This document shows, piece by piece, positions 3,199 through 59,504 of a stretch of 64,000 bases of DNA. The translations under genes were made by a program, and so were the position numbers. Source of the stretch: Limnanthes douglasii subsp. nivea (Eukaryota > Streptophyta > Magnoliopsida > Brassicales > Limnanthaceae); contig JAUPFV010000002.1 of NCBI GenBank assembly GCA_036936605.1, positions 161,750,813 to 161,814,812 of the forward strand, in the 5' to 3' direction. Positions within the stretch are counted from its first letter, which is position 1; every line of letters begins with the position of its first letter. The notes under the pieces were generated by a model. It saw nothing but the letters and a program-made list of their open reading frames with translations. It did not search any database and had not been told where the DNA came from.

Positions 3199-3249
3199 GA
3201 GAAGGTTCTTGAATCAAGCATTCGAAACCATCAAGAAAAACCAGTTCGG

Positions 3250-30922: not shown

Positions 30923-31017
30923 CTTAAAATTTATGTTCAGAATATATAAGTTAATATAAAATAAGGACAACATCGATTGAAAATATAACTTAGATACATT
31001 AAGGTTTAAAGACTTAC
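30923..31017 (-). other. Intron of element E aORF (95 nt)
   Basis: Donor AATT|GTAAGTC at 31017, acceptor TTTTAAG ending at 30923, AT-rich interior. The donor is exactly 12 residues after the Asn-Pro-Ser of the preceding exon, as in element A (NPSMLINRWKST versus NPSRLNLVQRSN), phase 1. The downstream frame is one base off, so the exon has since gained or lost a base. Confidence 0.65.
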
Positions 31018-32242
31018 AATTACTCCTCTGGACGAGGTTCAATCTAGAAGGATTAACGTCGGAAATTTCTTTGCCATTCTCCCAGGCCATAGAAATAAAG
31101 ACAAATTTCTGCTTCCAAAAACTTGTCTGCCTCCAATAGGTCATCGATTATATTTAAGTCATCGTACAAGGTGAGATAATAAAATGGAAGCATTGGTCCC
31201 TTTGACAATTTAATTAGAGATATGAAGTCTTCAATTTAGATCGAAATTTTGGGCAAACGGGAGGCCATGATTATAGAAATCTGCGTGAACCATTGATTTG
31301 GTGTTATTTGGGTTGGACACAGATCTAAAAGCTCGAACTAATCCACTATCATCGGGTCTAGTGGAAATCGAAGACCACAATTGATGATCTCTGGGTAGAC
31401 CACCAATTCGTCTTTTCTTTACAATCTAAATGTGTCTCTCCTTTTTTGGGAAGACAAAGCGTAATATTGTCTCTCATTCCTCATTGCTTCTTCAAAACAA
31501 CTGCTTGGCTCTCTTTGTAATATATATACAGAATATTTTTAGAGCCACTAAGTAGTTCGCATAATGAGTCCTCAAGTTCTCACTATTGACACACGTTCCT
31601 CGTCCGATATTGTGATAAGAACTTTCGTTTTCCTCGGTCTACGAGTCTTTTCTTTTGCATAATTTTCTGATTTTTTGAAGCTTTTTCTTTTGTTTCAGCT
31701 TTGGTATTTGATTATGTAGCGTCAGAATCAATTTCTACTTCGGATGCCTCGTTCATCAATCAAGAAGGTTCACTTGAGGGATTTTGTTGACACACTGTTA
31801 CCGTTTCAACAATATCCCTCGGGTGAGGAGAAGTGGTTGATGGGTTCAAAGTAATGTCGGCATCATCTCCCATGGTTATGAAAGTCTTTTTTCTTAGATT
31901 TCGAGGAGGATAAGTTTATGTGATATTGGTTGAGGAAGGAGTTTTTTCGGATATTTTCGAAGATTTTTTAGGGTTCGAGTTTTTTATGACTGGATTTCTT
32001 TTGTATGAGGAGAAGGTGAGAAAACTGGAGTTTTGGAAGGATCGAAATTACCGTAGTATATGGTCTTCAAAGATAGAACAAAGGGAGTGTTGCGTATTAA
32101 ACCAGCTGCTCTGTACTCATCTGCCCTTTCACTGATACAGAGGTTGTCGTAAGCTCTAAAGACGTTGTTATCTGATTTTAAAGATTTGGGTTTTTTTGGA
32201 AATTATGGCTTTAGATTTTCTAGGTTTTGGATGCTTTCTCAT
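31018..32242 (-). pseudogene. Element E antisense ORF, exon 1, degenerate
   Basis: The conserved domain is clear: CGLRFPLDPMIVD, LCPTQITPNQWFTQ, IIMASRLPKI, PMLPFYYL and KFVFISMAWENGKE. Upstream is a Ser/Pro-rich region with MGDDADITLNP, matching MGSDADTSPN in element C. The start is uncertain; the first ATG in a suitable basic stretch (MRKHPKPRK) is at 32242. Frameshifts lie near 31150 and 31450 and stops in the N-terminal part. Confidence 0.7.
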
Positions 32243-34012: not shown

Positions 34013-34420
34013 TGGCGAGGTTTATTTTCGTTTGAGGGTAAGTTTGTAATTTATTTTTGGAGTTTTGTGGAAGTTTGTGAGTATTTAATGTTTGAGTAGT
34101 GAGTAGAGGGAGAATTAAGCAGCCTGGTTGTATTTAATTTTCATTACCCTCATTTAATGTTGGTGGTTAGGTATTTATACCCTTACATTTGGGCCTTATG
34201 GGCTTTCGGGTCATGTTTAATGGACCCGGGTCAAGTTTAAGGACCCATGAGCTCTTAGTAGGAGAGCAGACAGCTTAGTCAAGAAGTGATTAGGTTTTTA
34301 AGTACTTTAGTTCTTGTTCGAACAGTCCATTGGATGAGGTGTTCGAACTGCCCTGTCCGGTTAGGTGGTCTTTGTCCGAACTGTCCCTGTCCGAAGAGGC
34401 AACAGAATCCGGACTCATCA
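34013..34420 (-). repeat. Element C 3' LTR (408 bp)
   Basis: On the minus strand TGATGAGTCCGG...CCTCGCCA. The TATAAATA promoter box is at 34172-34179 (minus). The R/U5 part is similar to the element A LTR, while the U3 part is different. Confidence 0.95.
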
Positions 34421-34434
34421 GTAGCCCTTTTTTT
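34421..34434 (-). other. Element C polypurine tract
   Basis: AAAAAAAGGGCTAC on the minus strand next to the 3' LTR, nearly the same as in A. Confidence 0.85.
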
Positions 34435-34759
34435 AGATGTTTGCTCAAATAACCTTTGTCAAACCCTGAAAAGCAGTCCGTTGTCAGTGGCAGTTTTATC
34501 CGGATAGGTCTTTCGAATTATGTTATGGTTTTATCTGGACTGAACAAGCTCTTGGAATCTAAACGGTTTTTTGCCAAAGTTCATGGGACACGTGTCACTC
34601 TTTGGTTCGTTTCTTTAGCCATTTTTCACCTTGAATTTCGCACCCACCTTTTCTGAAAAGCAACCTCTTCATTAATGAAGGTGACATCAGCGCCGTCTCT
34701 TAATCATTGCTAATCTTTTCGAATTCTCCTAGGAATCAAGACTTCCTTTTGAGGTTTAC

Positions 34760-34769
34760 TATAAATTAA
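34760..34769 (+). promoter_or_regulatory. TATA box of element C aORF
   Basis: TATAAATTAA 96 bp before the ATG, identical to the element A box. It is in plus orientation, opposite to the element transcript, just inside the 3' LTR. Confidence 0.65.
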
Positions 34770-34864
34770 GATACTTTTCCACTGTTTTACTATCAGTTTC
34801 ATTTTCACTTTGATAATTTTCAGAGCTTTCTCTCTCAAACACAAGTTCTTTACTTAGGTTGTTT

Positions 34865-36224
34865 ATGTTCACAGCTAGGAACGCTCTAATCAAAGGTGGG
34901 TGGCTCAATCTATCTGAACTAGAAAAAGCACAAAAAGTCGAAAGGGAAAGGCGCATTGTAGCAGGCTTACCCACTTCCCGCATCGACAAACCAGCAATCT
35001 CAGCTACAGAATCTGACCAGGGTTCTTCCTCCACAAAGGGTGTCAAACCGAAGAGATTGTGTCAAACCAGTATTTCCCCTATCATCTCAGGTTCTTCGGT
35101 TCAAGAGTCAGAACCCACGGTTGAACCAGGTTTAACAGTTACTAGTTTTAAAAAACCTTCCCCGTTCTTAGCCATGGGGTCAGATGCTGATACTTCTCCC
35201 AACAAGCTGGTTGATCGAAGAAAAGGCCGGCTGGTCAAAGGGCAGGCTTCCAAGGGCACCCTTTCGAAATCAGGTGCCAAGGACATCAGTACAGGGTCAG
35301 AAGTACCCATAAAAGCACCCAGGAACAGGCTGTCCGGTCCGGAGGCCACTGGCTCAAGCCCCCGAAGAGAAATCTCCACCTCAGAGCCCCAGCCGGAGGC
35401 TAGAGTGCAGGAGAGCACTGAAACTCATCAGTCCGGTGGTCAGACTGAACCAACTCCAAACTCCCCCTTCATCAATACAACTGAAAACCCTTATTCAATA
35501 ATGGAGGAAATAATGGAGGACTCTATCGAAGAGGCTCCATTTGAGTCCAAACCTTCCGGACAGACCAGTGGTGCTGTTGCTGCTCAGAAGGATAAAGGCA
35601 AGGAGAAGCTATGCTTAAGGCATCCGGATCTGCCGGAGTGTCTTGAAGGAAAAGCAGGACCTTGTTTCCACAAGTACAATGTTAAATATATTCTTGCCTT
35701 GCAAAAGATTAATTATGCCTTCATTCATACATCTGAGTTGGGCCGGATGTGTACGAAGTGGGGGATTCCAGAGAATGTGAAGATAAGAATCCCCATAGAC
35801 CCCGAAACCCCAATGGACTGCAAACTCAGTGAAATAGTCATATTTACTGAGCTCTTTAACTGGGGTTTAAGGTTCCCATTGGATCCGGAAATAGTTAGAT
35901 ATTTCCATCTTATCAAGCTCTGTCCCAGTCAACTAAGCCCCAACGCCTGGTACACACTTATGGCCCGCATCATGGCCTCCAGGCTCTCCGGGATTCCTCA
36001 ACCAATGGAGGAATTCGCAGCTGTGGCCAGTCTCTGCAAGAACCACCACATTCCCTTCTATCGCTTCAACATCGGTGATGATTATAAAGCAGTGGACGAT
36101 CTGCTTGAGTCAGAGAGAAACTGGAGGACCTAATTCCTGTTCGTAAGTGGTGCTTGGGAGAACGGGAGGAAAATTAAAGCCGGAGTCAATCCAGGTCTCC
36201 TCACCAGCAGATGGATGAGTGATC
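34865..36224 (+). pseudogene. Element C antisense ORF (aORF), exon 1, one nonsense codon
   Basis: The ATG at 34865 gives MFTARNALIKGGWLNLSELE. Codons 20-270 are Ser/Pro/Thr-rich with basic patches. Codons about 290-450 form the conserved domain: KWGIPENVKIRIPIDPETP, FTELFNWGLRFPLDPEIVR, LCPSQLSPNAWYTLMARIM, HIPFYRFNIGDDYKAVDDLL, FVSGAWENGRK. One TAA at 36131-36133 replaces a Gln codon (CAA in element A). The exon breaks after base 1 of a codon at 36224. With exon 2 the spliced length is 2883 nt, an exact multiple of three, about 960 residues. The function is unknown. Confidence 0.88.
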
Positions 36225-36305
36225 GTAAGGCTCCTATTTTATATTCTTTTTTCTACTTTTATCGAATTTTCTTAAACTGACTGTTCTTATCTTTTTTCTT
36301 AGCAG
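36225..36305 (+). other. Intron of element C aORF (81 nt)
   Basis: Donor GATC|GTAAGG, T-rich interior with an ACTGAC branch-like motif, acceptor TTCTTAGCAG|TGCTG. A tandem acceptor (TAG then CAG, three bases apart) would allow two in-frame products differing by one residue. Splicing restores the frame in phase 1 (MSD-L-LPKEFSDYL). Confidence 0.85.
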
Positions 36306-37828
36306 TGCTGCCCAAAGAATTTAGTGACTACCTAAAGGCCGGACAGGTTACTTGCACCAAGATCAACACTTAGACTGCGGAGAAATGGGGAAACCGGTTT
36401 CACGATGCTTTCACAGGAGGCAACTTGACAACGTCTCACCTCTGGAACACTACTGGCTGGAGGGACTTGACCTGGGAAGAAATCACCACTCCACCCCCTC
36501 CGGATGTAGTCCTCAATAGAACACACGAACTGGATGGGTTACTTTACTTGCCAAGCCGGGCCAAGGCCCCGAGTAAAATGAAAGGCAAGAAAAAGAAGGG
36601 CAAGAAGGTTGTAGGTGAGGCTAACCCTGCTGAGGTGGAGAAGGCTGCTCCAACAAATCCAGAGGGGCCATCCCCAAGCCAGATCGATGATGCTCTCTTA
36701 GAAGTGGTGGAGCAGGAGAGTGTTAGCGAAGAGGTTCAATCCCCAAAACCCCTAAGGGCTCCCAAGAGAGACCGAAAACGGGGAGCAGAAAGCAAGGACA
36801 GGGAAGCTAAGAAGAAAAAGACCTCTAGGGGTGATGAACTTTCTCTCCGGCCTCCGGAGCCTCTCCCCCCTGTAGATCCTACTGATCCAACACGAGCAAA
36901 GGAGATCCCTGGTGATTTTCAAACTGACGAGGTCGGAGGAGGAGACCTTAGCATTGATGGGGTTTTCATCACCGGGCTTGATGGACTTGGTGACTATTTT
37001 GCCAACCTCCCTAGAGACGATTTTGCTGGGGCTTACCTCCCTCCGAGTACTTCGAAAACCGTCACTTTTAATGGCAAGACTTTTACTGTTTCAAGTGAAA
37101 GGAATATTATAGCTCACTCCATATTAAGTAGTGTTCAGCCAGTGCTTGTGTTGGAGAAACAAGTTCGAAGTCAGGCAGATACTATCAAAAATCTCAAATC
37201 TGACAAAGAGAGACTGTCCGATGATCTTCTTACTTCCACTCAACATGTTGACATCCTGAAGGGAGAAAACGAGGAGTTAAAGAAGAGCCAAGAGGGGTGG
37301 ATCACAAAGGTTGCCACTTCAGAAGACACTATCAAAGAGCTCCGGGAGAAGCTGTCCGGATTGGAGAAAGATCTCATCTCTTCGAAAGAGGAGGCAAAGG
37401 CCAAGGATCAAGTCATTCACAACTTGACAAGTGACAAAATTTCGCTCGAGAACACAGTGTCCAAGGCCGTAGAGAAGAAAGTTGATCTGCTAAGAGAGCA
37501 AGAGGCCAAAATTCAGGCCAAGATCGATGCTTATGCCAACAACGTAATAGACACTAAAGAGCAGATGTATGCCAAGGTGAAATCGGACATGGTCCTTCTC
37601 TTTCATGAGAAGTTCCCGAAGAGGAACCTGGGAGATTTGTGGCTTCATGTAGAGTACGAAGACCTTCCCTTCCACACCATGGCTGATGGAGACTTGCATG
37701 ATTATTCCAGTGCTTCATCCTTTGACGAAGAAGAAAACACCGGGGAGGGTTCTCACGAAGAGAAAGACGATCCCAAGAAGAAGATGAAGACAAGTGAGGC
37801 TGAGCCATCTTCAAAGGCTCAGTCTTAG
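36306..37828 (+). pseudogene. Element C antisense ORF, exon 2, one nonsense codon
   Basis: From the acceptor: LPKEFSDYLKAGQ, EKWGNRFHDAFTGGN, SHLWNTTGWRDLTWEE, TPPPPDV, then basic clusters (KMKGKKKKGKK and PKRDRKRGAESKDREAKKKK, probable nuclear localisation). Then come GDFQTDEVGGG, a long coiled coil (about 37100-37560), HEKFPKRNLGDLWLHVEYEDLP and an acidic, Lys-containing tail. A TAG at 36371-36373 replaces Trp (TGG in A); otherwise 467 codons are open from 36425. The architecture suggests a nuclear, oligomerising protein, which is inference only. Confidence 0.88.
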
Positions 37829-38332
37829 ACTATGAATTATTTTTTACTTTTCATGTTACCTGAACTAAAGTCCTTGGAAGGCCAAGGCAAATTTGTTATC
37901 GTGTACGTCATTTGACCGGATAGATCTTTTGTTTTGTTTGAGAATTTAAAAGTCCTTGGAAGGCCAAGGCACTTAAGTTATTTCAATGAATATCTTTGTT
38001 TTGCACAACTCTTGCATCCTCTCATAGTTTGTTTCAATTTTGGTGGCTAGTGTTTAAATAGCCCTTAGTTATTTCATAAGCATTCTAAAGTGAGAGTGTT
38101 TAAATTCTCCGATGACAAAATGTTTAAGAAGTCATCATTCCCTTAATTCAATCCGGATGGTATGACAAAAAACAAAGTAAGAACACTTCATTTTTTTAAG
38201 AAGGCATCAAATTTCATTAAACAGCCCGGACACCTCATTAAAACCTCCCCGTGCCACCAGGGTAGGAAAAAGTATGCCCCCAAATATTTACATGGATTTT
38301 TAAACAAGTAAATATTTACATAGCTTCTATTC
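37829..38332. repeat. Element C spacer with duplicated hairpin
   Basis: Holds CCTTGGAAGGCCAAGG at 37872-37887 and again at 37954-37969, downstream of the aORF stop. Otherwise AT-rich and noncoding, up to the integrase end. Counterpart of 9283-9374 in A. Confidence 0.72.
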
Positions 38333-39640
38333 CCAGTACATTCGGAGATGTTCAATATTCCAAGGGTGATTTAAAACCTTTCAATCTTTGTCTTCTAGCC
38401 AATATGTTCCAGGTTTAAGCCTTTCAATGACCACATAAGGTCCTTCCCAAGTTGGGGCCAGTTTGCCGAGGAGCTTCTCTTTAGTGTGTAAGAAGACTTT
38501 CCTCAATACCTTGTCCCCCGGCTGGAAATCTCTTCTTTTAACTCTAGAAGCAAACCTGCTTCTCATCAAACCCTGATAGTGTATAGCTCTAAGGTGAGGC
38601 TTAACTCGTCTTTCCCCTATTAGGTCAAGCTGACCTATGATTTCCACTTCGTTAGAGTGTTCGGAGAAGTTGTGAACCCGAAATGAAGGGAGAGTTTCTT
38701 CTATGGGGGCTATTGCATCCATCCCATAGACCAAGGCAAAAGGTGACTCTTGTGTTGCAGCCCGAGGTGTAGTCCGGTAGGCCCACAAAACCTCTTTAAA
38801 CCGGACAGTATAGTTCTGTTAGCCACTTCAACCTGACCATTTGCTTGTGGGTGGAAAGGTGAAGAGAAAAAATGTTGTATACCCCTTGAGGCACAGAAAC
38901 TCTCCATTGCCTTGTTGTCGAACTGTGGCCCATTGTCTGTCGTTATCTTTTGTGGAACACCAAATCTGCAACAGATGTTGGATAAAATGAATTTTATGAC
39001 AGCTTTTGATGTTGTTCCTGCCAGGGGGGCTTCTTCAACCCACTTCGAAAAGTAATCTATAGCAAAAATTATAGTTCTGCGCCCTCCGGACGCCATAGGA
39101 AGAGGTCCCACAAAATCCACCCCCCAATCGAGCAAAATGTATAGGCTCAGAAATTGACTCTGAAGGGATGGTTGTGACATGAATTTCATTACTATATCTC
39201 TGGCATGGATCACACCTTCTCACCAGCTCCTTAGCATCTTGCATTATAGAGGGCCAATAATAGCCAGCCAGTAAAACTCTCCTTGTTAGAGCCCTGAATC
39301 CACAGTGAGCTGTTCCCTCACCATCATGCAATTCGGAGAGGACTACTTGAGACTCATCATCTCCTAAACATCGCAAAAGAGGTTTACTGTAAGACTTTTT
39401 ATACAGAACGTCCCTTAGTATGATAAAACCACGAGCTTTGTGCTTCATTTTTCTTGCCAATGATTTATCCGGAGGCAAGATGCCATCAGAGAGATACTGC
39501 AGGAGAGGGAATCTCCAATCTTGAGGCTGTTTCATCTGTACATCAAAAATTTCTTCCTCTTTGCTCATATTGAGTTGAATAGAAGGGCACTCCAGCACAT
39601 GGATCCAAGGATATGACTCAGTATATGCTATGGTTGCCAA
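38333..39640 (-). pseudogene. Element C integrase, frameshifted
   Basis: Zinc-binding ELHDGEGTAHCGF and CDPCQRYSNEIH; core WGVDFVGPLPMASGG, TTDNGPQFDN and NGQVEVANRTI, so all three catalytic residues remain. The frame shifts near 39100 and again at about 38790, where roughly 50 bp between ILSGLK and EVLWAYR are deleted relative to A. The C terminus has KLAPTWEGPYVV and continues past a TAG at 38379-38381 to the WNIEHL ending near 38350. Confidence 0.9.
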
Positions 39641-40560
39641 GGAATCTGCTAGTTCATTCTCTGCCCGGGGTATATGCTCATAAACAACGCTTTTGAATTT
39701 AAGAGCTTTATTTTTAAAAAGAAGTAAGTACTTCACTAGTTGCTCTTTTTTGGCCTCAGATTGACCTTGCGCATGGTGTATAAGAAGCTGGGAATCGCTC
39801 ATCAGCTTGACCCTTTTGGCCCCACAAATATCAGCCAACTTTAAACCAGCTATAGCTGCTTCGTAGTCGGACTCATTGTTGGAAGCCCTAAAAGAAAAAC
39901 ATATAGCCTGGTACATTTTGTCACCATATGGAGAAGTCAAGCACACCCCTGCACCACATCCCATAGTACTGGATCCACCATCCGTCCGGACGACCCAGAC
40001 CTTTTTGTCTTTCATCTCAGTAGTCTGCTCCGTATCCCTTTCAGAGTGGAATTCAACTAAAAAATCAGCCACAACTTGGGCTTTAACTGCTGTTCGAGGA
40101 GCAAAATCAATATCGAAGTCCCCCAATTCCACTGACCATTTAGTCATTCTACTTGAAATGTATGCCTTTTGAAGGACATTCTTCAAAGGAAAAGATGTCT
40201 GGACGATAATATGATGAGCCTGAAAATATGGCCTCATCTTCATTGCAGCAATTGCTAAGGCTAGTGCTAATTTTTCGAGCATCTATCAAGCTCTTGCTAA
40301 TGTAGTATACTGGATGGGGGTAATTATCCACCTCTCTTACCAATACAGCACTGATGTCACAACTTGAAACTTCCAAGTATACGAAGAGTGTCTCTCCATC
40401 AACAGGTTTAAATAAAGTCTTGGGGGAGGACAGATGTTTCTTAATCTCATTGAAGGCCTCATCGCACTGTGAAGTCCAGTCGAATCCCTTTGCACCCTTT
40501 AGAGTTTGAAAAAACGGGGCACATCTGTCCGAAGACCTTGAGATGAATTGATTTAAAGCA
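39641..40560 (-). pseudogene. Element C dual RNase H region
   Basis: The first RNase H has VYYISKSLIDA, then loses about 25 bp covering the EKRYLK block (frameshift at about 40290) and continues LEKLALALAIAAMKMRPYF. The second, archaeal-type domain (about 40000-39640) is fully open: RTDGGSSTMGCGAG, NNESDYEAAIAGLKLADI, SDSQLLIHHAQ, ENELADSLATI. Connection motif TKWSVELGDFDIDFAPRT lies between. Confidence 0.88.
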
Positions 40561-41417
40561 GCCAACCTTCCAGTCAACCGTTGTACATCTTTAACATTCC
40601 GAGGAGGCTCCATTTGGAACAAAGCATTAAGCTGGTCCAGATCGGGCTGTATCCCTTGCTCACTTATTATATAACCTAGGAACTTCCCGGACTGCACTCC
40701 GAACACACATTTTTCTGGGTTTAGCTTTAAATTCACTTTTACTAAGTTAGCAAAAGTTTCTTGGAGGTCTGCCAAGTGAGGTTGTTCATCCACACTTTTC
40801 ACCATCACGTCATCAATGTATACTTCCATATTTCTTCCAATTTAATCAGCAAAGGCTTTGTTCACCAATCTCTGATAAGTAGCCCCAGCATTTTTCAATC
40901 CGAATGGCATCACCTTGTAGCAATGAAGACCCCTATCAGTGACAAATGTGGTATGCTCCCGATCCTTCGGATCTACTTGAATCTGATTGTACCCGGAGAA
41001 AGCATCCATAAAGGATAGTAGCTTATTTCCAGAAGTGGAATCTACCAGCTGATCAATCTGGGGGACTGGATATAAATCTTTTGGGCAGGCCCTATTGAGA
41101 TCTGTGAAGTCAATGCACATACGCCACTTGCCATTTTTCTTTTTCACCAAGACCGGGTTGGCAGTCCACAAAGGATATTGAGACTCCTTTATATGTCCCA
41201 TTTTTGTGAGCATGTCAACTTCTTGAACAATAACATCAGCCTTTTCCTTGGTAAAAGCCCTTCTCTTTTGTACCACATGTGCTATGTCTCTCCGGATGGA
41301 TATGTGATGTGATATAATATCTGTTGGAACCCCTGTAACATCAGCGTTGCACCAAGCAAAAACATGCTGATGGTCTTTTAGAAACTTTAACATCTTAATC
41401 TTCAGTTCGGATGGCAT
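40561..41417 (-). pseudogene. Element C reverse transcriptase, one nonsense codon
   Basis: Open from 41417 with [60 protein letters not shown] and [20 protein letters not shown] at 40844-40842 replaces the Gln of the family motif FADQIGRN, then VYIDDVMVKS (catalytic Asp pair intact) and LTGRLAALNQFISRSSDRC. Apart from this stop the RT fold is complete. Confidence 0.92.
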
Positions 41418-41459
41418 TTTGGACCCTATCTTAACACTCTGGGGTCATCAATTTCACCC

Positions 41460-42210
41460 TCACCCCTAGAAAGCCCCTCAAACTGCTATTCTTCGTTGGT
41501 ACGAACTACCCCAACGTCCGTGGAGCCAGTGTTGTAGCATAACACTCTCTTGCAATCTTTTGACTGCTCCGGACAACTCCCACTTGTCCTTGAACAACAT
41601 ATTTCAAACATTGGTGGACTGTCGAGGCCATTGCATGCATCCTAGAGAGTCAAGACCTCCCTAAAATAGCATTATAACAAATGGGACAATCCACCACAAT
41701 AAAAAGTATCATGACCATCTTCTTAAAAGGGCTCTTGCCCAATAAAAGTTCCTCTTCGAACTCCCCGATCACATATGCTGAGCTCCCAGTGAAGCCCACA
41801 ATTGATCTGTCCGAACGCTGAATTACGACTGTATTTTTAATCTTTTTGTAAGTGTTTAAGAAGAAGATATTGGCTGAACTCCCAGTATCCACCAAGATTC
41901 GTCTTATGTCATTGCCCCCAATGGATGCTCCTATGACAACAACATCTTCATGAGGGCCAGCTATATCCCTTAAGTCATCTTCATTGAAAACAATGAAGGG
42001 AAATGGAATTTGTGATTGATAGGAGGTCATGCCTCCTTCCAGCTGGGTCGCTAAAGTATGAACGTGCCTCTTCCTTGAAGAAGCAGTAGGAGTTGTCATA
42101 GTATCCCCTCCGAAAATTGTGAGTGACTCAAAAAACTCAATAAGCCCGGAGACTGTTTTACAACGTTCCTGAATGGAACCCACCCTATTTCGAGTTAGAT
42201 CAGGATCCAA
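41460..42210 (-). pseudogene. Element C protease domain
   Basis: FFESLTIFGGDT, SRKRHVHTLATQLEGGM, active site RRILVDTGSSANIFF, VGFTGSSA, NAILGRS, then a TGA at 41652-41650 (Trp in A) and STVHQCLKYVVQGQVGVV, RECYATTLAP. The position of the family stop codon holds TAG-CAG-TTT (41485-41477), but a one-base loss puts it out of frame in this copy. Confidence 0.85.
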
Positions 42211-42213
42211 ATA

Positions 42214-43871
42214 TTATGACTCTACATCAAATATTTCGATTATAACCATAGCTCCCTCCGGAGCAACATTGCTTGGACCAACCCGATGAGCATTATCAGG
42301 CATATTTCCTCCTCTTCTTTTCACATATGCCCCCAACTTCCCTCTTTCAATCAAGTTCTGAACTTCTTGTTTCAAGGCTATACAATCATCAGTGGTATGG
42401 CCAGTATCATTATGGTACCGACAGAAAGAGTTGTTACGATGTTCCATAGGAGATTGCAGCGCGGCCGGCCTTCTATAGTGCACTTCTTCCTTTGTTTTAT
42501 CGTAAATGGTGACCACACTTTCTTTGAATTCTGCAAACCACTCCGGTTGAACCCAAGACCCTCTCTAATTTCTAGATTTTTAACTCTGGGCAGGTGCAGC
42601 TGGCTGAGATTGAGCTTTAGCCCTGTTATGCCCCTGTTTGGTCTCCCTCACTTTGTTCCCGGACTGATTTTGGTTGGGGTTTGGTGCAACCGGGGCAGAC
42701 CTCACCTGCATGTGCACCCTAGTTTTCTTTGTTTCATCAATATTGATTTGCTTTCCGACTTGATTCAGCAAACCTCCCCAAGTCATGGCTTTCTTTCTGG
42801 TCACTGAATCAGCCAAATTTCCAGGGTTTAAGCCCTGTCTCAAGGATGGTATTGCTACTTGCTCGAAGCAATCAGCAACCCATTTTTGGTGTTTACAAAA
42901 CGACTTATGTATTCTTTCAATGATTCGTTTGGTTCTTGGGCACAATGGATTATTGTGTCCCCATTGCCTTTTAATTCCTTACTCCCAACAAACTGCCTTC
43001 AAAAGGCCACCCAGAAGATATCAAAGTTCCTGATGCAGCCTTGAGGTAGAATGTTATACCACTTTAGAGCACTCCCCGTAAAAGATTGGGAGAATGCTCT
43101 ACAGAGTAACTTATCGTCATCATCAAAATTCATCATGAAGTTTTTAAATTGCTCCAAGTGGTTGTCCGGATCATTACTACCATCGTACTTCTCCATTTTA
43201 GTACTATCGAACCTCTTAGGGAGGTTTCCGGACATAATCTTGGAAGACAATGGAGATTGTATCCAATTCCGGCCACGACTGAACACAATATCCTCATTGG
43301 GAGTTGCAAAGATTCTTGGTTCATCGTGGAAGGCGAAAGGATCCATCAGCATCCGTTCTACATGCCTTCGGCTGTGAGATGATCCTTTGACTATATTCTT
43401 CTTCAATTTCCCATGTCTATCCCTTTTTCTTGAATACTTTTTAATCAACTTTTGCTTCTTTTTGGATCGGCCCTCATCACTACTGGAGGATAAGGATTCT
43501 TCGACTCCATCCTCGTCAGAGGAGCTATCAGAAGACTCTGAGTCTGAATCAGAACTCTCCACTGGTTTAGACCGGTGAGAATTTTTGGAGCTAGCATGAG
43601 TCTTCTTGGTACTCACATGAGTCTTCGAAGGCTCATGCTCTCTAGGGTTGTCGGTATGATGAGCGACTGATGCTTTTGACTTTTCTTTCATGCCCATCTT
43701 AGCCTTCTCTGCCCTCAGAGCTTCTATCTCGCCCTTTAATCTATCATGCTCCTCGATGGTGTATTCATCATTTTCACCCACCATTTCAAGCAAAGCTCGT
43801 GGTACTTCCGGGGCGTCCGGATTAATTCGGACTGATTTTTCCTGTTGGTTTCGAATGCTTGATTCAGGCAC
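42214..43871 (-). pseudogene. Element C gag, frameshifted
   Basis: 290 codons are open from 43871 (an MPESSIRN start): an acidic/Ser/Lys-rich N terminus, RFDSTKMEKYDGSNDPDNHLEQF-type core, KWYNILPQGCIRNFDIFW. Then breaks near 43000 and 42870, the ADCFEQVAIPSLRQGLNPGNLA block, a Gln/Asn-rich linker and a zinc-knuckle-like CRYHNDTGHTTDDC at 42214-42516. No stop separates the end from protease except TAA 42216-42214, which lies in the linker. Confidence 0.88.
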
Positions 43872-43878
43872 CGTCGTC

Positions 43879-43896
43879 CTCCCACTGTGGTCGCCA
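43879..43896 (-). other. Element C primer binding site
   Basis: TGGCGACCACAGTGGGAG on the minus strand, identical to element A; spacer AAT to the LTR. Confidence 0.82.
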
Positions 43897-43899
43897 ATT

Positions 43900-44307
43900 T
43901 GGTGAGGTTTATTTTCGTCTGAGGGTAAGTTTGTAATTTTTGTTTGGAGTTTTGTGGAAGTTTGTAAGTATTTAATGTTTGAGTAGTGAGTAAAGGGAGA
44001 ATTAAGGAGCCCAATTGTATTTAATTTTCATTACCCTCATTTAATATTGGTGGTTGGGTATTTATACCCTTACATTTGGGCCTTATGGGCTTTCGGGTCA
44101 TGTTTAATGGACCCAAGTCAAGTTTAAGGACCCATGAGCTCTTAGTAGGAGAGCAGGCAGCTTAGTCAAGAAGTGATTAGGTTTTTAAGTACTTTAGTTC
44201 TTGTTCGAATAGTCCAATGGATGAGGTGTTCGAACTGTCCTGTCCGGTTAGGTGGTCTTTGTCCGAACTGTCCCTGTCCGAAGAGGCAACAGAATCCGGA
44301 CTCATCA
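43900..44307 (-). repeat. Element C 5' LTR (408 bp)
   Basis: TGATGAG...CCTCACCA on the minus strand, same length as 34013-34420 with about 18 mismatches and no gap. Confidence 0.95.
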
Positions 44308-48739: not shown

Positions 48740-49070
48740 TGATGAGTCGATAATTGTTTGGGGAATATATTTAGGATCTTTGTGCTAGATGTGACTAGAT
48801 AGAGAAAGTGTAGAGAGATAAAGGAAGATTCAGAGAAAATATTATTCAATGCCCTTTTTTAGGCAAGTGGGTCACCCTTTTATACTAAAATAAGGAGGAC
48901 CCATTTAAGCTCTTAGTGGGCCGTTCATCACATATTAATGAGGCCCCTCTACTATCTTTATCTTTATACATTGGTCCCTGATTGACTCTGAATACTCTTT
49001 AACTACATCAAATATTTATTTATTGTGTTTTTACCCCTCTAATTGAGATCGGCGAATTCCGCCCTCATCA
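48740..49070 (-). repeat. Element D 3' LTR (331 bp)
   Basis: Ends form a perfect inverted repeat TGATGAG...CTCATCA. It differs from 59174-59504 by three substitutions. Confidence 0.96.
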
Positions 49071-49082
49071 GTAGCCCCCTAG
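49071..49082 (-). other. Element D polypurine tract
   Basis: AGGGGGCTAC-type purine run on the minus strand next to the 3' LTR. Confidence 0.8.
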
Positions 49083-49594
49083 TCTTCAGGAGCTTCGTGA
49101 GCAGAGACTTGCGAAAGAGCCATCGCCACTCGTCCGATCTCTTATCAAGCTTCAGGCTCTGTAAGTTCTGACTGCCCGATGCTCGAGGCTTCCTCATTGG
49201 TGATATTCCCGAGCCTCCTATTCCTGTTCTGCTGGGATTTTCATCCCGGGCCTCTTGTGATGGGCCTATCCTTCTTTCCGATCTCGGTGGTGCCGGCCCA
49301 TATCGTCGATGGGTTCGTGATGAGTTGCTTATGTCAGCCCTTGTCAGTCGGTGGTCGACACGTGTCTTTAGCTAACGGGTCACCCCTCTGTCAGACTAGG
49401 CTCCTAGTGAGACTCTTCATCTTCCCGCTGTCTTTTCGTCGATTGGTATCCCCCGATCCTTCAATCCAGCCTATAAATACCCCAAGGTTCTTAGTGTCTC
49501 TCAGAGGCATTTTAGAGAGAGAAAACGCTGTCCGATCATTTCTAGAGAGAGAAAGAGCTCGTTCGACCCTTCTTCATTCTGGTATGTTTGTTGC
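49083..49594 (+). promoter_or_regulatory. Promoter and leader of element D aORF, TATA box at 49472-49479
   Basis: TATAAATA lies 123 bp before the aORF ATG. The leader is pyrimidine-rich with GAGAGAGA runs and holds a very short upstream frame starting at ATG 49584 (four codons). The strand is opposite to the element transcript. Confidence 0.6.
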
Positions 49595-50916
49595 ATGAAA
49601 CCCAGACGTTCACAGAAAAAACCGACCAAGAAAAAGAAATCTGAGTGGAGCTTTGAAGAGTGGTCTAGTATCGGAGATCGAGCAGAGGAATACCGACGCG
49701 CTGGTCTGATCTGGGGGTCTAACTCCAAACCTTTTGTTCCCGCTCCACTTCCTCACGATCCCGTTCTTGCCACCCCGGTTCCCGCAGAATCTTTCTTGGT
49801 ATCTGACCTTCCGGTTTCTCCTATTCCTGAGGCTAGCCTATCCCCAGAACCCATTATCCTTTCCTCCAGTGACAGTTCCCATTTTTCAGTAGTCGGGCCA
49901 AGAAATCCGACCTTACCGTCCGTCAACTCGCCCGCTTCCCGACGTGTCCGTAAATCCACATTCTTGATAATGGGAGAAGACGATCTATCCAAGTACTCAG
50001 CAGGAGGTAATAGTCCCGAAATGGTTCAACTTACGCCCTCGATTAGAGGGATTCGGACCGGTATTAACACTGCGGTCACTTTTTTAGGTTTTCCCAAAAT
50101 GCGGCTAACACCCGAGCAAGCGGAGGAGGCTCATAGGGCCATGGCACGCGACGCTGCCGACGCTTCTTCCTCTCGAGTCCGGCCGTCTGAAACAGATGCC
50201 GCTACCGCCCGCAGCTCTAGTCAAGTTCCGACCCAAGAAGCTGGAGAGTCGGAAGTCGATGTTGCTCCCGCGGGAGTCTGTATTGCTGCTGCTGGCCACG
50301 CGGCTAACCCCCAGGATGACCCCTTGCCCGAAGAGGTTGCGGCCGCCATTTCCACCAAGTACTTCAGCTGGCTTCTAACCAGGGACGTGGTTTCTCTCTT
50401 CGAATGGAAGTATCTCTACTTCCCCGAGGCCGATCATAGAGACTTACTGACCCGCTGGGGGATCCCTGAGTGTGTCAGCGTCCGATTCCCGACCCCAGGA
50501 GACCCCCGTCCACGTCAGACCCAGAGAGATCGTGGTGTTCACCGAATTGTTCAACTGGGGTTTGCGTTTCCCCTTGGACCCTGAGATTGCGCTCTATTTT
50601 CGCACCCTCCAAATCTGCCCGTCGCAGCTGACGCCAAATGCTTGGTATACCTTGATGTCCTGCATCATGGCTTCCCGCCTTTCTGGTCAAGTTATGCCGA
50701 TGGAGGAGTGTATCGCCATGTCGGGTCTGTCCAAGTCCCCGAAATCCCCATTCTTCTACTCTTCTCTTGGCAATAAGTGGAAAATTGTCAACGACTTCTT
50801 GGAAGGGGACAAAGGGTGGAAGCATCGGTTCGTATTTCTGAGCGGGTATTGGGAGAACGGTCTTCCATACTCTCCGGAGAACCCGAGGCAACTGCTGCGG
50901 ACCTGTGTCCATGATG
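49595..50916 (+). pseudogene. Element D antisense ORF (aORF), exon 1, one frameshift
   Basis: The ATG at 49595 gives MKPRRSQKKPTKKKKSEWSF, a strongly basic N terminus. A Pro/Ser-rich region follows, then MGEDDLSKYSAGG and an Ala-rich stretch. The conserved domain begins WGIPECVSVRFP. A frameshift near 50505 in a C-rich stretch moves the frame to FTELFNWGLRFPLDPEIALYF, ICPSQLTPNAWYTLM, MASRLSGQ, SPFFYSSLGNKWKIVNDFL, FVFLSGYWENG. The exon ends phase 1 at 50916. The function is unknown; it is the same family as in A, B, C and E. Confidence 0.88.
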
Positions 50917-50992
50917 GTACTACCTTCCCCTATAAATATATATATTTTTTTTTTTTTTTTTATATACCTTTATCTACCGTTCCTTTGCATAG
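50917..50992 (+). other. Intron of element D aORF (76 nt)
   Basis: Donor GATG|GTACTA, acceptor TTTGCATAG|TGTCG, with a 17-base T run between. Joined in phase 1 the text reads HD-V-SKDWLQGVKKD, matching the exon 2 start of A and C. Without splicing the frame meets TAG at the acceptor. Confidence 0.82.
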
Positions 50993-52241
50993 TGTCGAAG
51001 GACTGGCTGCAGGGGGTGAAGAAGGACCATTCGGAAGCCGCGGAGGTCACTTTCGAGGTGCTGAAAAACTACTCCCGAAGGAATTGGGGTCGGGGCATGC
51101 ACCGCACTTTCATGGATAAGAACTTGTTCATGAGCAACTTCTGGCGGTGCTCATCCGAGGCTCTTACCATTGAACAACTGCGGGAGCCTCCAAGTCTGGA
51201 CGACGTGCTTGCCCGAACCGGGCGTCCCGGGTACATACTATACCTGCCCAAACGCAACAAGGCACCCAGTAAGCGTCCAAAGTCAGAGGACGACGAGGCA
51301 GTAGGTGACCCGATCAGGGTAGCGGCGCCGAGGCAGGACGACTGGATGCGAGTCATAACCCGGCCGCGGTGCAAAAGAGGAAAAAACGTGCAGAGACGGG
51401 GGGGGGGGGGGGGGGGTCTAAGTCGAAGAAATCCAAAACTGCGGTAGAGGATCTGGCGGTGGTCAGCGCCGGGGTGGGTGCTTCGGGGCCTAAACTCGTG
51501 GATCAAGTTGACGACGGCGGAGGTCCTGTAATGGACGACGTTGTGTTAATTCCAGACGACACTGAGCCCCCCGAGGCTGCAAACCCGGACGCCTCTTCGT
51601 CAAGTGGCCCCAAATTCCCGGTGCTGACGATGCTTAGTAGCCCGCACCCTTTTCCTCTTCGGGGCACTGATGGACTTGCTCTGTCGCTATATAACTTGCT
51701 GGTTCCGGCAGCCTTGAAAGAGCGTCGGGCAAAGGAGCTTAGCAAAAAGTTAGCCTTGGCGGAGACAAAGATTACCAGTCTTGCTGCGAAGGTCAAAACT
51801 GCCGAGGAGGCCCAGGCGTTGGCGGAAGGTCGGGTTGTTGAAGCTGAAAATCTCGCTACCGAAGCGAAGACGGCCGCGGAGACGGCGAAGCAGGCGATGG
51901 CGACAGCGAAGAAAACCGCGGAGGACGCGGTGAACGTTGCGGAGACGGCGAGGAAAGCCGCGGAAGACCGCGCCTCATCTCTGGCACTGGAGGTTCAAAA
52001 GTTAAAATCCTCGAACGTCGCTTACATCAACCGATGTAGATAGTGGTCGGACAAGGAGACTGCGGATGCCAAAGCCGCATACGTGCTGTCACTCCATAAC
52101 CGCTTCCCGGACCTTCGCCTTGGGTCGCTGTGGCTCGACGTACCAGAGAAAGACCGGCCCGAGGGAGTCGATTGGGGGGAATCCGACGATGTTGACGATG
52201 AAGAAGACGATGAGGATGTGGATGAAGATGGGGACCAGTGA
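50993..52241 (+). pseudogene. Element D antisense ORF, exon 2
   Basis: SKDWLQGVKKD, NWGRGMHRTFM, FWRCSSEALT, REPPSLDDVLA, YLPKRNKAPSKR, then a basic KRKKRAE and SKSKKSK region interrupted by a 19-base G run (51398-51416) where the frame changes. A long Ala/Lys/Glu coiled coil follows (about 51700-52010), a TAG at 52041-52043, then LHNRFPDLRLGSLWLDVPEKD and an acidic tail to the TGA at 52239-52241. The order of parts is the same as in C. Confidence 0.85.
51398..51416 (+). repeat. Poly-G tract (19 bases) in element D aORF
   Basis: Mononucleotide run between frames 50905-51447 and 51369-52043. It encodes a poly-Gly linker and marks the point where the frame must change. Confidence 0.9.
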
Positions 52242-52415
52242 TTTCGTTTCCCCCTTCGTTTTTTTTGAAAATTCTGTAACTCTTTGGGGGCCGTAGGCCC
52301 CTCTGTTTTTTTTATCGAACCACTTTAACTCTTATGTTTTTTGGGGGTCACGGGGCCCCCTGTGACGATCATATTTAATTTGCTGGGTATACTATTTCGC
52401 ACATCGTAAATCTTA
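52242..52415. other. Element D aORF 3' region
   Basis: Short noncoding stretch with GGGGGCCGTAGGCCCC and GGGGGTCACGGGGCCCCC palindrome-like motifs followed by T runs. This is a possible hairpin pair analogous to the duplicated hairpins of A and C. Confidence 0.4.
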
Positions 52416-52791
52416 ATGTTCGGTAGGTTAATTTGTTACCGAAAGTTTTCCAGAGGTTCGGGAAAACCAAAGCGTAGATCGGTAGAACCGAAAAACCTAT
52501 TTTTAGGCTCTGTAGATCGATTTGTTATCGAAAGTTTTTCCAAAGGTTCGGGAAAACCAAAATGTAGATCGGTAGAACCGAAAAACCTAGTTTTAGGCTC
52601 TGTAGATCGATTCGTTATCGAAAGTTTTTCCAAAGGTTCGGGAAAACCCAAATGTAGATCGGTAGAACCGAAAAACCTATTTTTAGGCTCTGTAGATCGA
52701 TTCGTGATCGAAAGTTTTTCCAAAGGTTCGGGAAAACCAAAATGTAGATCGGTAGAACCGAAAAACCTATTTTTAGGCTCTGTAAATCGAG
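52416..52791. repeat. 90-bp tandem repeat, 4 copies, in element D spacer
   Basis: GGCTCTGTAGATCGATT starts at 52506, 52596, 52686 and 52776, exactly 90 bp apart, with an earlier diverged copy from 52416. As 90 is a multiple of three and each unit lacks stops, both strands show a spurious repetitive frame of about 150 codons. Located between the aORF stop and the integrase end. Confidence 0.95.
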
Positions 52792-53019
52792 TAATATTAA
52801 AAGAAAAGGACGACGTCCAGCTCGTCAGCTGTCCGAAGTCACAACAATTTAATATGTAGAAGGCAAAAGATTTTTTGATTATAAAAAACGTGGGTCGGGT
52901 TTTGACTGATGCCTCGTTAAAACCTCCTCGCGCCACCGAGGTAGGAAAGAGTGCATCCCCGACCGTTTACAACCTTGAATCAAGTGGAAAATACAGCGAA
53001 GTACATCGTAAATTACAAA

Positions 53020-54346
53020 CTATTCTAGATACAATTTTAAGTGCTCAATATTCCATGGTAGCCTTAGGAGGTGTCCGAGCCGATTCGGCAGGCGGTACGT
53101 CCCGCTCTTGATTTTCTCGACAATTTCGTATGGTCCCTCCCAATTTGGGGCCAGCTTTCCGAGGCTCTTGTCCTTTGTGTGGAGGAACACGCGTCGTAGA
53201 ACCTTATCTCCGACCTTGAACTCCCGACGGCGGACTTTGGCTGCGTATCGACTTCTCATTAAAGTTTGGTAGTGTAAAGAATTTAAATGGGCGCGGTGGC
53301 GCTTCTCTTCTATGAGGTCGAGCTCGAGTCGTCGGCTGTCGTCATTCGTCTCCTCCTGATAAGTTCCGACCCTGAAAGAAGGAAAAATAGATTTTGCGGG
53401 AGTGACCGCGTCCATACCATACACTAAAGCGTAAGGCGACTCTTGAGTGGCCGTGCGGGGTGTGGTTCGGTAAGCCCACAATACTTCTTGCAAGTAGTCT
53501 GGCCATTTCCCGGCCTTTCCCTCGAGGTTCTTTCTGAGGCCATCCAGAATGGTTCGGTTTGTTACTTCGACCTGACCGTTGGCTTGTGGATGAAAAGGAG
53601 CAGAGAAACATTGTAGGATATTATGAGTGGTGCCGAACGCCTTCATCTCCGCACTATCAAACTGTGGCCCGTTGTCCATAGTTAGCCGCTGGGGCACTCC
53701 GAACCGGCAACAAATGTTCGCCCAAATGAATTTGACAATATCTTTGGTCTTCGTGGCGGATAGAGGTTCGGCTTCGACCCACTTGGAGAAGTAATCTACT
53801 GCCACGACAATCTACTGCCACGACAATCGTCTGCCTTCCTCCGACGAGGTCGATTCCCCAGCGGTAAAAAGGCAGCCCTTCGGATATGGATTCTAGGGGA
53901 GCTGCTGGTACGTTGATGGCGTTACCGAACCTTTGACACGTATCGCAGGTTTTTACTATGAGTCTTGCGTCTGCCGTTATTGTCGGCCAATAGAACCCCG
54001 CAAGAAAAATTCTCCTAATCAGAGCCTTGTATCCGCAATGCGCCGTGCCTTCACCATCATGCAGTTAGGACAAGATTACCTGGGATTCGTCGAAACCTAA
54101 ACATCAAAGCAGAGGTCGGCTAAAAGATTTTTTGTACAGCACATCCCCTAAAAGGACGTAGCCCTGCGCTTTGTTGCGCAATTTTCGTGCCGAAGCGGTG
54201 TCGTCGGGAAGCCGACCTTCAGCCAAGAAAGAGATAATACCCCGGCGCCAGTCTGAAGTTGCAACCGAAGAGATCTGGCATGCGATTTCAGGTCGGTTAG
54301 CTAACTCATGTCGTTTAATGATGGACGGGATTTCTTGCTCTATCAT
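53020..54346 (-). pseudogene. Element D integrase, small in-frame loss and 16-bp duplication
   Basis: DDTASARKLRNKAQGYVLL leads in; the zinc-binding part has LHDGEGTAHCGY and CDTCQRFGN. The core reads RWGIDLVGGRQT, lacking the PLPMAS residues that follow in A and C. A perfect 16-bp tandem duplication (about 53791-53822) then shifts the frame before VDYFSKWVEAEPL. TMDNGPQFD and NGQVEVTNRTI keep the second Asp and the Glu. The C-terminal 261 codons (53805-53020) are open and end WNIEHLKLYLE. Confidence 0.9.
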
Positions 54347-55299
54347 CTATGGATAACTGGTGGAGCAGGAAATCGTTGCCAAAGAATCCGCTGTGGTGTT
54401 TTTGCTTCGTGGTACATGCTCGTAAGTAATTTTGTCAAAGGAAGCGGCCAGAATTCTTAATGCCGCAAGGTACTGTACCAGGTGTTCCTTCCGAGCCTCC
54501 GCGCTTCCCGAGGCTTGGTTTATTAGAAGTTGGGAGTCGCTTATGAGTCGTACTTGTCTTGCCCCGCATACCTGTGCCAACCGTAACCCTGCCAAAGCAG
54601 CCTCGTATTCAGCTTCATTGTTCGACGTGTGGAAAATAAAACGGATAGCCTGGAGCATCCTAACACCCGAGGGAGTTACAATTTGGACTCCCGCCCCACA
54701 ACCACTAACGTTTGCTCCCCCATCGGTGCGGACGGTCCACTCGCCCTCTGCTTTCTCTTGTGAGTGCGCTTCCTGTTCGGGTCGTTCTGAGTGAAACTCA
54801 ACTAGAAAATCGGCCAAGACCTGGCCTTTGATAGCTGTTCGGGGTTCAAATTCAATGTCGAAATCCCCCAGTTCAACGACCATTTGGATAATCTCCCGGA
54901 CATGTCTGGTCGTTAAAAAATGTATTTTAGCGGAAGTGATGTGCGGAAAACAATAGGGTGGGCTTGGAAGTATGGTCGCATTTTCCGCGCTGCTGTCACC
55001 AGAGCCAGCGCCATTTTTTCCAATTTGAGGTACCGAGTTTCGGCGTCCAGTAAACTTTTGCTCACATAGTATACCGCTGTCGGAGCTGGCCCTGATTCGC
55101 TGATTAGAGCAGCGCTGACCGCATAATCCGTGACCGCAATGTAAAGGAAAAGGGTTTCCCCCGCAGTCGGCTTGGTGAGGCGGTTCAGGGTCGATAGGTA
55201 CTCTTTGATCCCTAAAAAAGCCTTGGTACACTCAGGATTCCAAACAAAATTTTTTGCCTGTCGTAGGACCTGAAAAAACGGAGCGCATTTATCAGACGA
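54347..55299 (-). pseudogene. Element D dual RNase H region
   Basis: The first RNase H (about 55230-54900) has VYYVSKSLLDAETRYLKLEK and RKMRPYFQAH, with a frameshift near 54945. The second, archaeal-type domain is open: RTDGGANVSGCGAG, NNEAEYEAALAGLRLAQV, SDSQLLINQ, KNTTADSLATI. D, E, D, D ligands are present. Confidence 0.88.
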
Positions 55300-56306
55300 T
55301 CAAGAAATGAAACGATTTAGGGCGGCCAGACGCCCGGTCAGAATCTGAACTTCCTTCACACTCCGGGGAGGCGTCATGTCGGCTAGGGCTCGGAGCTGAA
55401 TAGGGTCTGCTTCAATTCCTTTCTCGCTGACGAAGAACCCCAAGAATTGCCCTGATCGGACCCCAAAAGAACATTTCTCCAGGTTTAGCTTAAGGTTGAT
55501 CCCTCGTAGATTACCAAAAGTTTCCCTGAGATCGGCGAGATGGGCTTCATCGGTACCGCTTTTGACCAACATGTCATCGATGTAAACCTCCATGTTTCTC
55601 CCGATCTGGCCTTCGAATGTTCTGTTTACTAGCCTTTGGTATGTCGCGCCAGCGTTTTTAGTCCGAAGGGCATCACTTTGTAAAAATATAATCCCCGACC
55701 CGTAATGAACGTAGTATTCTCCTGATCTGCGTCATGTAACTTAATTTGATTGTAACCGGCATAGGCGTCCATAAACGAGAGTAGCTTGTTGCCCGACGTC
55801 GAGTCTACCAGCTGGTCGATCCTCGGCATCGGGAAAGAGTCCTTCGGGCATGCCCGATTAAGATCAGTAAAGTCCACGCACATCCTCAATTTCCCGCTTT
55901 TCTTTTTAACCAGCATGGGGTTAGAGATCCATAAAGGGTATTTTGCTTCCTTGATGTGTCCGACGCTGGTCATTCTCTCAACTTCCCGCAGAATTACTTC
56001 CGCCTTTTCGGGGGAAAAAGCCCGACGCTTCTGGACGATTGGTCTGATATTTCCGTTGATAGTCAACTTGTGAATCGCGAAGGATTCTAGTACCCCCATG
56101 ACATCCCCTGAGCACCATGCAAACAAGTCTAGGTTCTCTCGTAGGAGGGTCATTAGCTGTTCCCTTAGGGTTGGCAAAAGGTTTACCCTGACCCGCAGAT
56201 ATTGCCCGTCTGCAAAATAATGTAGTTCGCATTCCTCGTCTGTCGTCAAAAGGCTTGGGGCCTCCCGGGGGTCATCCACCGGTTGCGATCCCGGAGGCAC
56301 CCCCCT
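55300..56306 (-). pseudogene. Element D reverse transcriptase, one frameshift
   Basis: The frame is continuous with protease behind the UAG: DDPREAPSLLTTDEECELHY, then [59 protein letters not shown] base is lost in the A-run at about 55660, then VYIDDMLVKS (intact) and LTGRLAALNRFIS. The remaining fold is normal, so one indel and a stop at about 55300 disable it. Confidence 0.92.
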
Positions 56307-56312
56307 TAATTG

Positions 56313-56960
56313 CTATTCTTGAGCCGGAAACATCTCTTGGTCTTTTTTCGGAGCTAACGCAGCTCGGTAACATTCCCGCGCTGCTTTTTGGCTGCTTCGG
56401 ACCACTCCTACATTGTTCCCGACCACGTACTTCACACACTGATGAATAGTAGACGTCACAGCATGCATGCGCGATATCCAAGATCGGCCAAGAATGGCGT
56501 TGTGTGAGGTCGGCGCGTCCACTACTACAAACAAAATCGTGACCTCCTTTTTAAATGGGCCGCGGCCTAACTGGACCACGCCCTCGAACTCCCCGACTAC
56601 GTCGGCTGCTGATCCGGTAAACCCGACAATGGTGCGGTCAGATCGCGCAATCACCGGTCGCGTCCTGAACTTAGCGATGGTAGATGCGAAGATGATATTG
56701 GCCGAACTCCCGGTGTCTACCAAGATGCGCCGAACCTCCTCTCCCGCTATTGCTGCCCCGATCACAATGGCGTCCTCATGCGGTCCAGCTATGTCTCTCA
56801 TGTCGTCGTCGTCGAAATGTAAAATCGGTGAGGGGGCGCTTCTGGTTTGGAAGCAAGTTCTGGCTTCCAACTGGGTGGTCAAGTTGACAATGTGCCTTTT
56901 CCTGGAGGAATGCATGACTCCCGCCATCGAATCCCCCCCCGAAAATCGTTAGAGATTCAA
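56313..56960 (-). pseudogene. Element D protease, ends in UAG with readthrough-like context
   Basis: SSRKRHIVNLTTQLE, FDDDDMRDIAGPHEDAIVIG, active site RRILVDTGSSANIIF, VGFTGSAADVVGEFEG, NAILGRSWISRMHAV, STIHQCVKYV, ARECYRAALAP. It ends E-UAG (56315-56313), directly followed by CAA-UUA, and the same frame runs on into RT. A G8/C8 homopolymer near 56931-56938 sets it one frame off from gag in this copy. Confidence 0.9.
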
Positions 56961-56989
56961 AAAGATTACAGAGGTCTCGCACTTTACCG

Positions 56990-59124: not shown

Positions 59125-59153
59125 CGGACAAAAGATTCCTTTTTGGTATCACT

Positions 59154-59172
59154 GTTCCCACAGACGGCGCCA
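59154..59172 (-). other. Element D primer binding site
   Basis: TGGCGCCGTCTGTGGGAAC on the minus strand, one base from the LTR. It differs from the TGGCGAC sites of A, C, E and H, so another tRNA is used; which one I cannot say. Confidence 0.82.
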
Positions 59173-59173
59173 A

Positions 59174-59504
59174 TGATGAGTCGATAATTGTTTGGGGAAT
59201 ATATTTAGGATCTTTGTGCTAGATGTGACTAGAGAGAGAAAGTGTAGAGAGATAAAGGAATATTCAGAGAAAATATTATTCAATGCCCTTTTTAAGGCAA
59301 GTGGGTCACCCTTTTATACTAAAATAAGGAGGACCCATTTAAGCTCTTAGTGGGCCGTTCATCACATATTAATGAGGCCCCTCTACTATCTTTATCTTTA
59401 TACATTGGTCCCTGATTGACTCTGAATACTCTTTAACTACATCAAATATTTATTTATTGTGTTTTTACCCCTCTAATTGAGATCGGCGAATTCCGCCCTC
59501 ATCA
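59174..59504 (-). repeat. Element D 5' LTR (331 bp)
   Basis: Partner of 48740-49070 with three substitutions. A TATAAAAG-type box lies on the minus strand in the middle. Confidence 0.96.

Follow-up and report, generated by a model that had tools for sequence, protein, structure and literature searches.

The antisense TRP28 gene of Retand retrotransposons is already known (PMC11963269, PMC7264820). In a survey of 63 element clusters that relied upon ORF Finder, TRP28 was reported in all but two clusters, always in antisense orientation, and in 97% of the recently active ones; the representative elements of those clusters yielded 104 antisense ORFs, called by ORF Finder without splicing (PMC11963269). 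In the available text of that paper the string 'intron' occurs 0 times and 'splic' twice, one of these within the title of a reference. The gene23 of maize Grande has been described as an antisense gene that is transcribed from a promoter of its own and whose product is nuclear (PMC7264820); in the text available from that source 'intron' occurs 0 times, and the authors urge attention to antisense and spliced transcripts.

Two further systems offer partial likenesses. The HBZ gene of HTLV-1, as presented in the accessible part of PMC1459196, is alike in the way it works: this regulatory gene belongs to an LTR retroelement, is antisense and spliced, and acts in the nucleus. It is unlike the genes described here in that it starts in the 3' LTR, is alternatively spliced and encodes a bZIP protein of an animal retrovirus, and no membership is implied. 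The gag-pol intron of Ogre (PMC6317226, in the portion at hand) provides a case of a host-removed intron in an element of the Tat clade.

The locus considered here is a window of 64,000 nucleotides (the whole stretch of DNA analysed, from Limnanthes douglasii subsp. nivea) that holds five Retand-like Ty3/gypsy elements, termed A to E, with one antisense gene each, located between pol and the 3' LTR. These genes resemble the published Retand ORFs in that location, in their TRP28 region, in the size of the elements and in the tandem arrays that accompany them; however, the published ORFs were annotated unspliced (PMC11963269, in its available text), whereas here the TRP28 part and the coiled-coil part appear to be two exons of one gene. 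They also resemble Grande gene23 (via what is available of PMC7264820) as antisense accessory genes with what is probably a promoter of their own, a nuclear product being reported there.

Judged from the sequence, what Retand carries as antisense TRP28 is probably a single two-exon gene, spliced by the host, equipped with its own TATA promoter and convergent with pol. The observations behind this reading are a homologous intron position, the splice ends, a frame relation kept in four of the five elements, constraint on the exons between A and C, and three TATA spacings; the conservation evidence covers the elements of this window, in one genome. A description of this antisense intron was not found in the open-licence papers searched, and an earlier account, for example in the original Grande paper, is possible. 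New here are the TATAAA boxes of A, C and D, which stand 105-123 nt ahead of the antisense start codon.

Five Retand-like elements

Elements A, C and D are bounded by matching LTR pairs (~324/376, 408/408 and 332/332 bp, respectively) and by 5-bp TSDs (Table 1). With internal regions of ~9.7, 9.5 and 10.1 kb, all three are of a size within the Retand range (LTRs of 315-1194 bp, internal regions of 7.4-12.9 kb), and the position and strand of their antisense TRP28 gene are as in Retand. Element E is an old copy on the plus strand, with an LTR match of 86%. Element B, on the minus strand, extends past the left edge of the window, and its integrase, RT and gag relics (~13.9-18.9 kb, minus strand) lie on the far side of A, so that A appears, from this order, to be nested in B.

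In C, whose gag-pol runs on the minus strand, RH, RVT_3 and an integrase zinc domain succeed one another within one ORF, an order that places an extra RNase H (aRH) between RH and INT. In D, RVT_3 lies upstream of the integrase, the RH domain itself being uncalled in the ORFs examined, and A and E are assigned the trait only through their similarity to C. This extra RNase H is, according to the available text of PMC6317226, a trait of Ogre as well as of Retand.

The original prediction spoke of five different elements. All five do carry the interval described below; however, A and C are close relatives (~79% nucleotide identity in pol), so that the five elements represent about four lineages. 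The integrase of D is 60-64% identical to those of A and C, 55-58% to that of E and 36% to that of B; a shared intron would then predate these splits, unless it was gained in parallel.

Several further features of the elements may be recorded. The gag-pol of D is split into several ORFs (53020-58560) despite LTRs that are 99.1% identical, for which recent damage, a non-autonomous copy and assembly indels are alternative explanations. In D (90 bp x 4.0, at 52431-52790) and E (34 bp x 5.6, at 28931-29119), tandem arrays lie in the stretch that separates pol from the antisense gene; many Retand elements carry such arrays in this region (PMC11963269, available text). A sixth related element, with a gag that resembles those of C, A and E, starts near the right edge (61769-63774, plus strand), and its antisense gene would fall outside the window.

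Table 1. Elements, proposed antisense exons and introns, and TATA boxes in the window
Feature	Positions	Strand	Description
Element A	2854..13244	+	LTRs ~2854-3177 and ~12869-13244; TSD ATATC; apparently nested in B
Element C	34013..44307	-	LTRs ~34013-34420 and ~43900-44307; TSD AATAT; defined by LTR match and element ends
Element D	48740..59505	-	LTRs 48740-49071 and 59174-59505, 99.1% identical; TSD GCTAC
A exon 1	11047..12426	-	stops and one frameshift
A intron	10967..11046	-	80 nt, GTATAC...TGAAAG
A exon 2	9378..10966	-	end taken from translation; internal stops
B exon 1, partial	347..925	+	decayed
B intron	926..1001	+	76 nt, CTAAAA...ATGCAG; non-GT donor
C exon 1	34865..36224	+	TRP28 region; one in-frame stop, 36131-36133; weak PF04195 match
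C intron	36225..36305	+	81 nt, GTAAGG...TTAGCAG
C exon 2	36306..37828	+	basic, NLS-like stretch and a tail like a coiled coil; a single stop within
D exon 1	49595..50916	+	frameshift near 50500
D intron	50917..50992	+	76 nt, GTACTA...GCATAG
D exon 2	50993..52208	+	end approximate; frameshift and stop
E exon 1	31018..32130	-	begun at conserved N-terminal motif, not a known start; decayed
E intron	30923..31017	-	95 nt, GTAAGT...TTTAAG; removal does not restore the homologous frame
TATAAA of A	12528..12533	-	107 nt upstream of antisense ATG
TATAAA of C	34760..34765	+	105 nt upstream of antisense ATG
TATAAA of D	49472..49477	+	123 nt upstream of antisense ATG

The antisense gene and the state of its copies

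The five antisense genes encode relatives of one protein: exon 1 of C is 63-76% identical to that of A, 58% to D, 41-47% to E and 27-29% to B. Matches to PF04195 (Transposase_28, TRP28) reach 16.8 bits in C and 18.8 bits in D, both below the 26.2-bit gathering cutoff, and Pfam searches gave no family for pieces of the antisense gene of A and B, nor for three exon-2 pieces near the junction (from D, A and C). When C exon 1 was used as a query in protein searches, whole and as residues 300-422, no relatives were returned, and scans of viral contigs and plasmids yielded none either; neither Rfam at its gathering threshold nor ARAGORN reported anything on the window. Among prokaryote genome contigs, a match of 28% identity over query residues 37-89, from a WWE3 bacterium, was taken as chance.

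All five copies are damaged: there are two stops in C, stops and a frameshift in A, and frameshifts in D, and E and B are strongly decayed. Drawn from the five copies that this window holds, the case made here bears on the history of these families and not on their present copies.

A probable homologous intron in five elements

Five intervals of 76-95 nt had been predicted within the antisense genes, at one alignment position, 10 nt after a conserved Trp or its counterpart and in phase 1. All five were found where they had been placed (Table 1), with a GT donor in four (A, C, D and E, the donor of B being CT) and an AG acceptor in every one. The acceptor of C is ambiguous by 3 nt (36302 or 36305). 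For B, an alternative GT donor at 924-925, 2 nt upstream of the CT, was rejected, since the resulting 78 nt misfits the residue needed modulo 3.

The position of the intervals can be judged without any alignment. Read back from the donor, an Asn-Pro pair is met exactly 10 codons plus 1 nt upstream in A, C, D and E, and in each of these a W-[EK]-N-G motif precedes it in the phase 1 reading (the last 30 codons ahead of the donor run ...FLFISGAWKNG...NP-x10 in A, and those of C, D and E are similar). The corresponding region of B can be aligned but lacks the Pro; its Asn-Leu comes one codon later, and a stop stands where the first Trp would be. A Trp four codons before the donor, 10 nt from the junction, is common to A, B and C, and its counterparts are Cys in D and Gln in E; the predicted common position is borne out, and the predicted phase as well except in E, where it misfits.

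When the five sequences were aligned with MAFFT, using equal flanks of 250 nt, all five donors fell in one column. Because equal flanks favour a shared donor column, a control with random unequal flanks was run 40 times: the donor then occupied the column of C in 40 runs for A, 32 for D, 32 for E and 21 for B, and every donor lay within 15 columns of that of C in 40 of 40. In alignments of A, C and D only, the donor of D was 11 columns off with equal flanks, and with random flanks (40 runs) it was exact in 17, 11 columns off in 22 and 22 columns off in 1.

Reading frame and T content of the interval

With the frame fixed by homologous anchors, removal of the interval restores the homologous frame in four of the five elements, the lengths of 80 nt in A, 76 in B, 81 in C and 76 in D having just the remainders modulo 3 (2, 1, 0 and 1) that are required. 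E is off by one, with a residue of 2 where 1 is needed; a donor at 31013, 4 nt inside the one assigned to E, would restore its frame, and an indel in this old copy is as likely. The joined exons of C (1360 + 1523 nt) do amount to the predicted 961 codons, final stop included, but they are interrupted by two in-frame stops, one per exon, at points where A has Gln and Trp.

Between the same anchors, GT-AG pairs of 60-160 nt that restore the frame number 7 in A, 11 in C and 14 in D. The interval itself is the most T-rich of these in both A and D. It ranks third in C (0.53), where its acceptor twin has 0.55 and a pair whose donor lies 6 nt farther upstream has 0.54, and in B several frame-restoring pairs tie at 0.30 T. 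The T content of the interval, 0.575 in A, 0.531 in C, 0.526 in D and 0.463 in E, is reached by no window elsewhere in the respective gene (0/2735, 0/2722, 0/2339 and 0/2017); the interval of B is not T-rich (0.30), and B was left out of this comparison.

It could be argued that TRP28 and the coiled coil belong to two separate antisense ORFs, with a T-rich, unspliced spacer between them, which is how an ORF-based survey would annotate the region and how the 104 published antisense ORFs were obtained (PMC11963269, available text). The unspliced reading does stop inside the interval in A and C, though not in D or E. However, conservation of exon 2 sets in at its very first codons, yet Met is absent from the first 67 codons in A and the first 90 in C (the first Met stands at codon 35 in D and 65 in B, and the piece from E, which was read in a non-homologous frame, is left aside), and the GT/AG ends, together with a frame restored in four of five elements even though the lengths differ modulo 3, speak against such a spacer and make this arrangement improbable.

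Putative promoter and transcript end

In A, C and D alike, TATAAA occurs a single time between the LTR and the antisense ATG (Table 1), and the chance of finding one at 90-125 nt under an order-1 Markov model is 0.015, 0.007 and 0.003, respectively; as A and C are aligned relatives, only two of the three boxes are independent. In E, TATAAA occurs at 32346 and 32405, which is 216 and 275 nt before the conserved N-terminal motif, and there is no clear ATG; the start of B fell outside the test. No clear conserved AATAAA was seen after the gene, only ATTAAA, ~390-430 nt past the end of the stretch in A and C.

Selection on the exons

Over the 250-nt exon flanks A and C are 72.8% and 71.6% identical; over the interval the figure is 55%, a value reached by 64 of 100 shuffled intervals (mean identity 56.7%), which puts the intron at the shuffled level. 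The original prediction had proposed dN/dS of the exons as a check, and in the comparison of A with C both exons prove to be under purifying selection: the Nei-Gojobori ratio, with codons containing stops or gaps excluded, is 0.116 in exon 1 (336 codons) and 0.165 in exon 2 (498 codons), these ratios being rough because dS (1.3-2.0) is near saturation. In a second exon 1 block of 118 codons, dS is saturated (pN 0.115, pS 0.755). Elsewhere in the same two elements the ratio is 0.066 in gag, 0.058 in RT (185 codons) and 0.094 in RH-INT, and 1.22 in another RT block of 41 codons.

Mismatches between A and C cluster, in both exons, at the third position of the antisense codons. Counted by codon position, they number 8, 7 and 16 in the first 40 codons of exon 2, and 4, 5 and 7 in the last 20 codons of exon 1 (14, 14 and 38 in the last 80); this close to the junction, the excess at the third position is plain for exon 2 and less marked for exon 1. 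The interval is without such an excess (16, 13 and 11).

These figures bear on the notion, to which we assign just as little probability as to a pair of unspliced ORFs, that a captured gene with an inherited intron is a mere passenger, neither needed nor expressed by the element, and decaying. Damage in all five copies, with B and E strongly decayed, fits that notion; however, the exon ratios of 0.12-0.17 are near those of RH-INT, gag and RT, the third-position excess is present, the TATA spacing is conserved, and TRP28 is found in 97% of recently active clusters (PMC11963269, available text). Least probable of all, and by some distance, is that the structure or packaging of the sense genomic RNA, and no antisense protein, accounts for the conservation. 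A and C do share conserved noncoding sequence between pol and the LTR as well (95% in one 80-column window), but the mismatches in both exons pile up at the third antisense codon position, and the longest stop-free runs of A, C and D are shorter on the sense strand (176, 112 and 164 codons) than on the antisense strand (241, 484 and 329).

The predicted protein

Exon 2 of A and exon 2 of C have in common an NLS-like basic stretch at residue 153, so called by reference to the bipartite NLS consensus. A home-made heptad score is higher for exon 2 of C (0.72) than for its exon 1 (0.47), and the Pfam matches of coiled-coil type are weak, below the cut-off. The predicted structure of the TRP28 stretch, made from three sequences, has a mean pLDDT of 57.8.

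A probable host-spliced antisense gene

According to the preferred reading, that of one two-exon antisense gene, exon 1 would contribute the TRP28 region and exon 2 the NLS-like basic stretch and the coiled-coil-like tail, and the host spliceosome would take a U-rich intron of ~80 nt out of the antisense mRNA. Seen in the direction of gag-pol, this intron is CT...AC, so that genomic RNA would retain it and new copies would inherit it. We infer transcription, splicing and nuclear localisation of the antisense product.

Expression over the history of these families had been deduced from the retention of the intron. That deduction is insufficient by itself, because an antisense intron cannot be removed in retrotransposition, whether it is used or not, so that retention alone is no proof of expression. 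The evidence for use lies instead in the maintained splice ends and frame; together with the homologous position of the interval, the exon constraint and the TATA boxes, these support the original interpretation in part.

The likeliest role for the product, which we offer tentatively and with considerable doubt, would be a nuclear one: that of an accessory protein acting upon the DNA or chromatin of the element and regulating its expression or silencing. A broader scenario, more speculative again and on balance unlikely, would extend to Retand as a whole: an independent spliced gene would have been acquired as DNA, with its intron, before the deepest split among these elements, that of D and B (whose integrases are 36% identical), and splicing would serve as a switch, in which retention of the intron (in A and C) gives a TRP28-only protein lacking the NLS-like and coiled-coil part, and splicing gives the full nuclear protein.

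If the gene is indeed spliced, ORF-only surveys of Retand cut one gene in two and lose half of its protein. The splice junction would also serve as a strand-specific tag, in that a junction read would prove antisense expression and could not arise from genomic RNA. An intron in the antisense gene would also speak for an entry of the gene in the form of DNA, rather than by way of a copied spliced mRNA, and the position of that intron would be a marker for tracing the source gene.

Conserved sense-strand motifs downstream of pol

Just past the stop codon of pol, a noncoding block of ~100 nt is common to A and C (8935-9040 on the plus strand and ~38210-38320 on the minus strand, respectively), within which one 80-column window is 95% identical as against ~60-80% around it. 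The block holds two copies of TGTAAATATTT, which resemble PUF-protein sites in the sense RNA. A GGRGGTTTTAAYGAGGY-like motif, in the sense direction, is found downstream of pol in four elements, at 9011 (A), 28746 (E), 38232 (C) and 52911 (D), with 0-2 mismatches, where 0.07 would be expected by chance.
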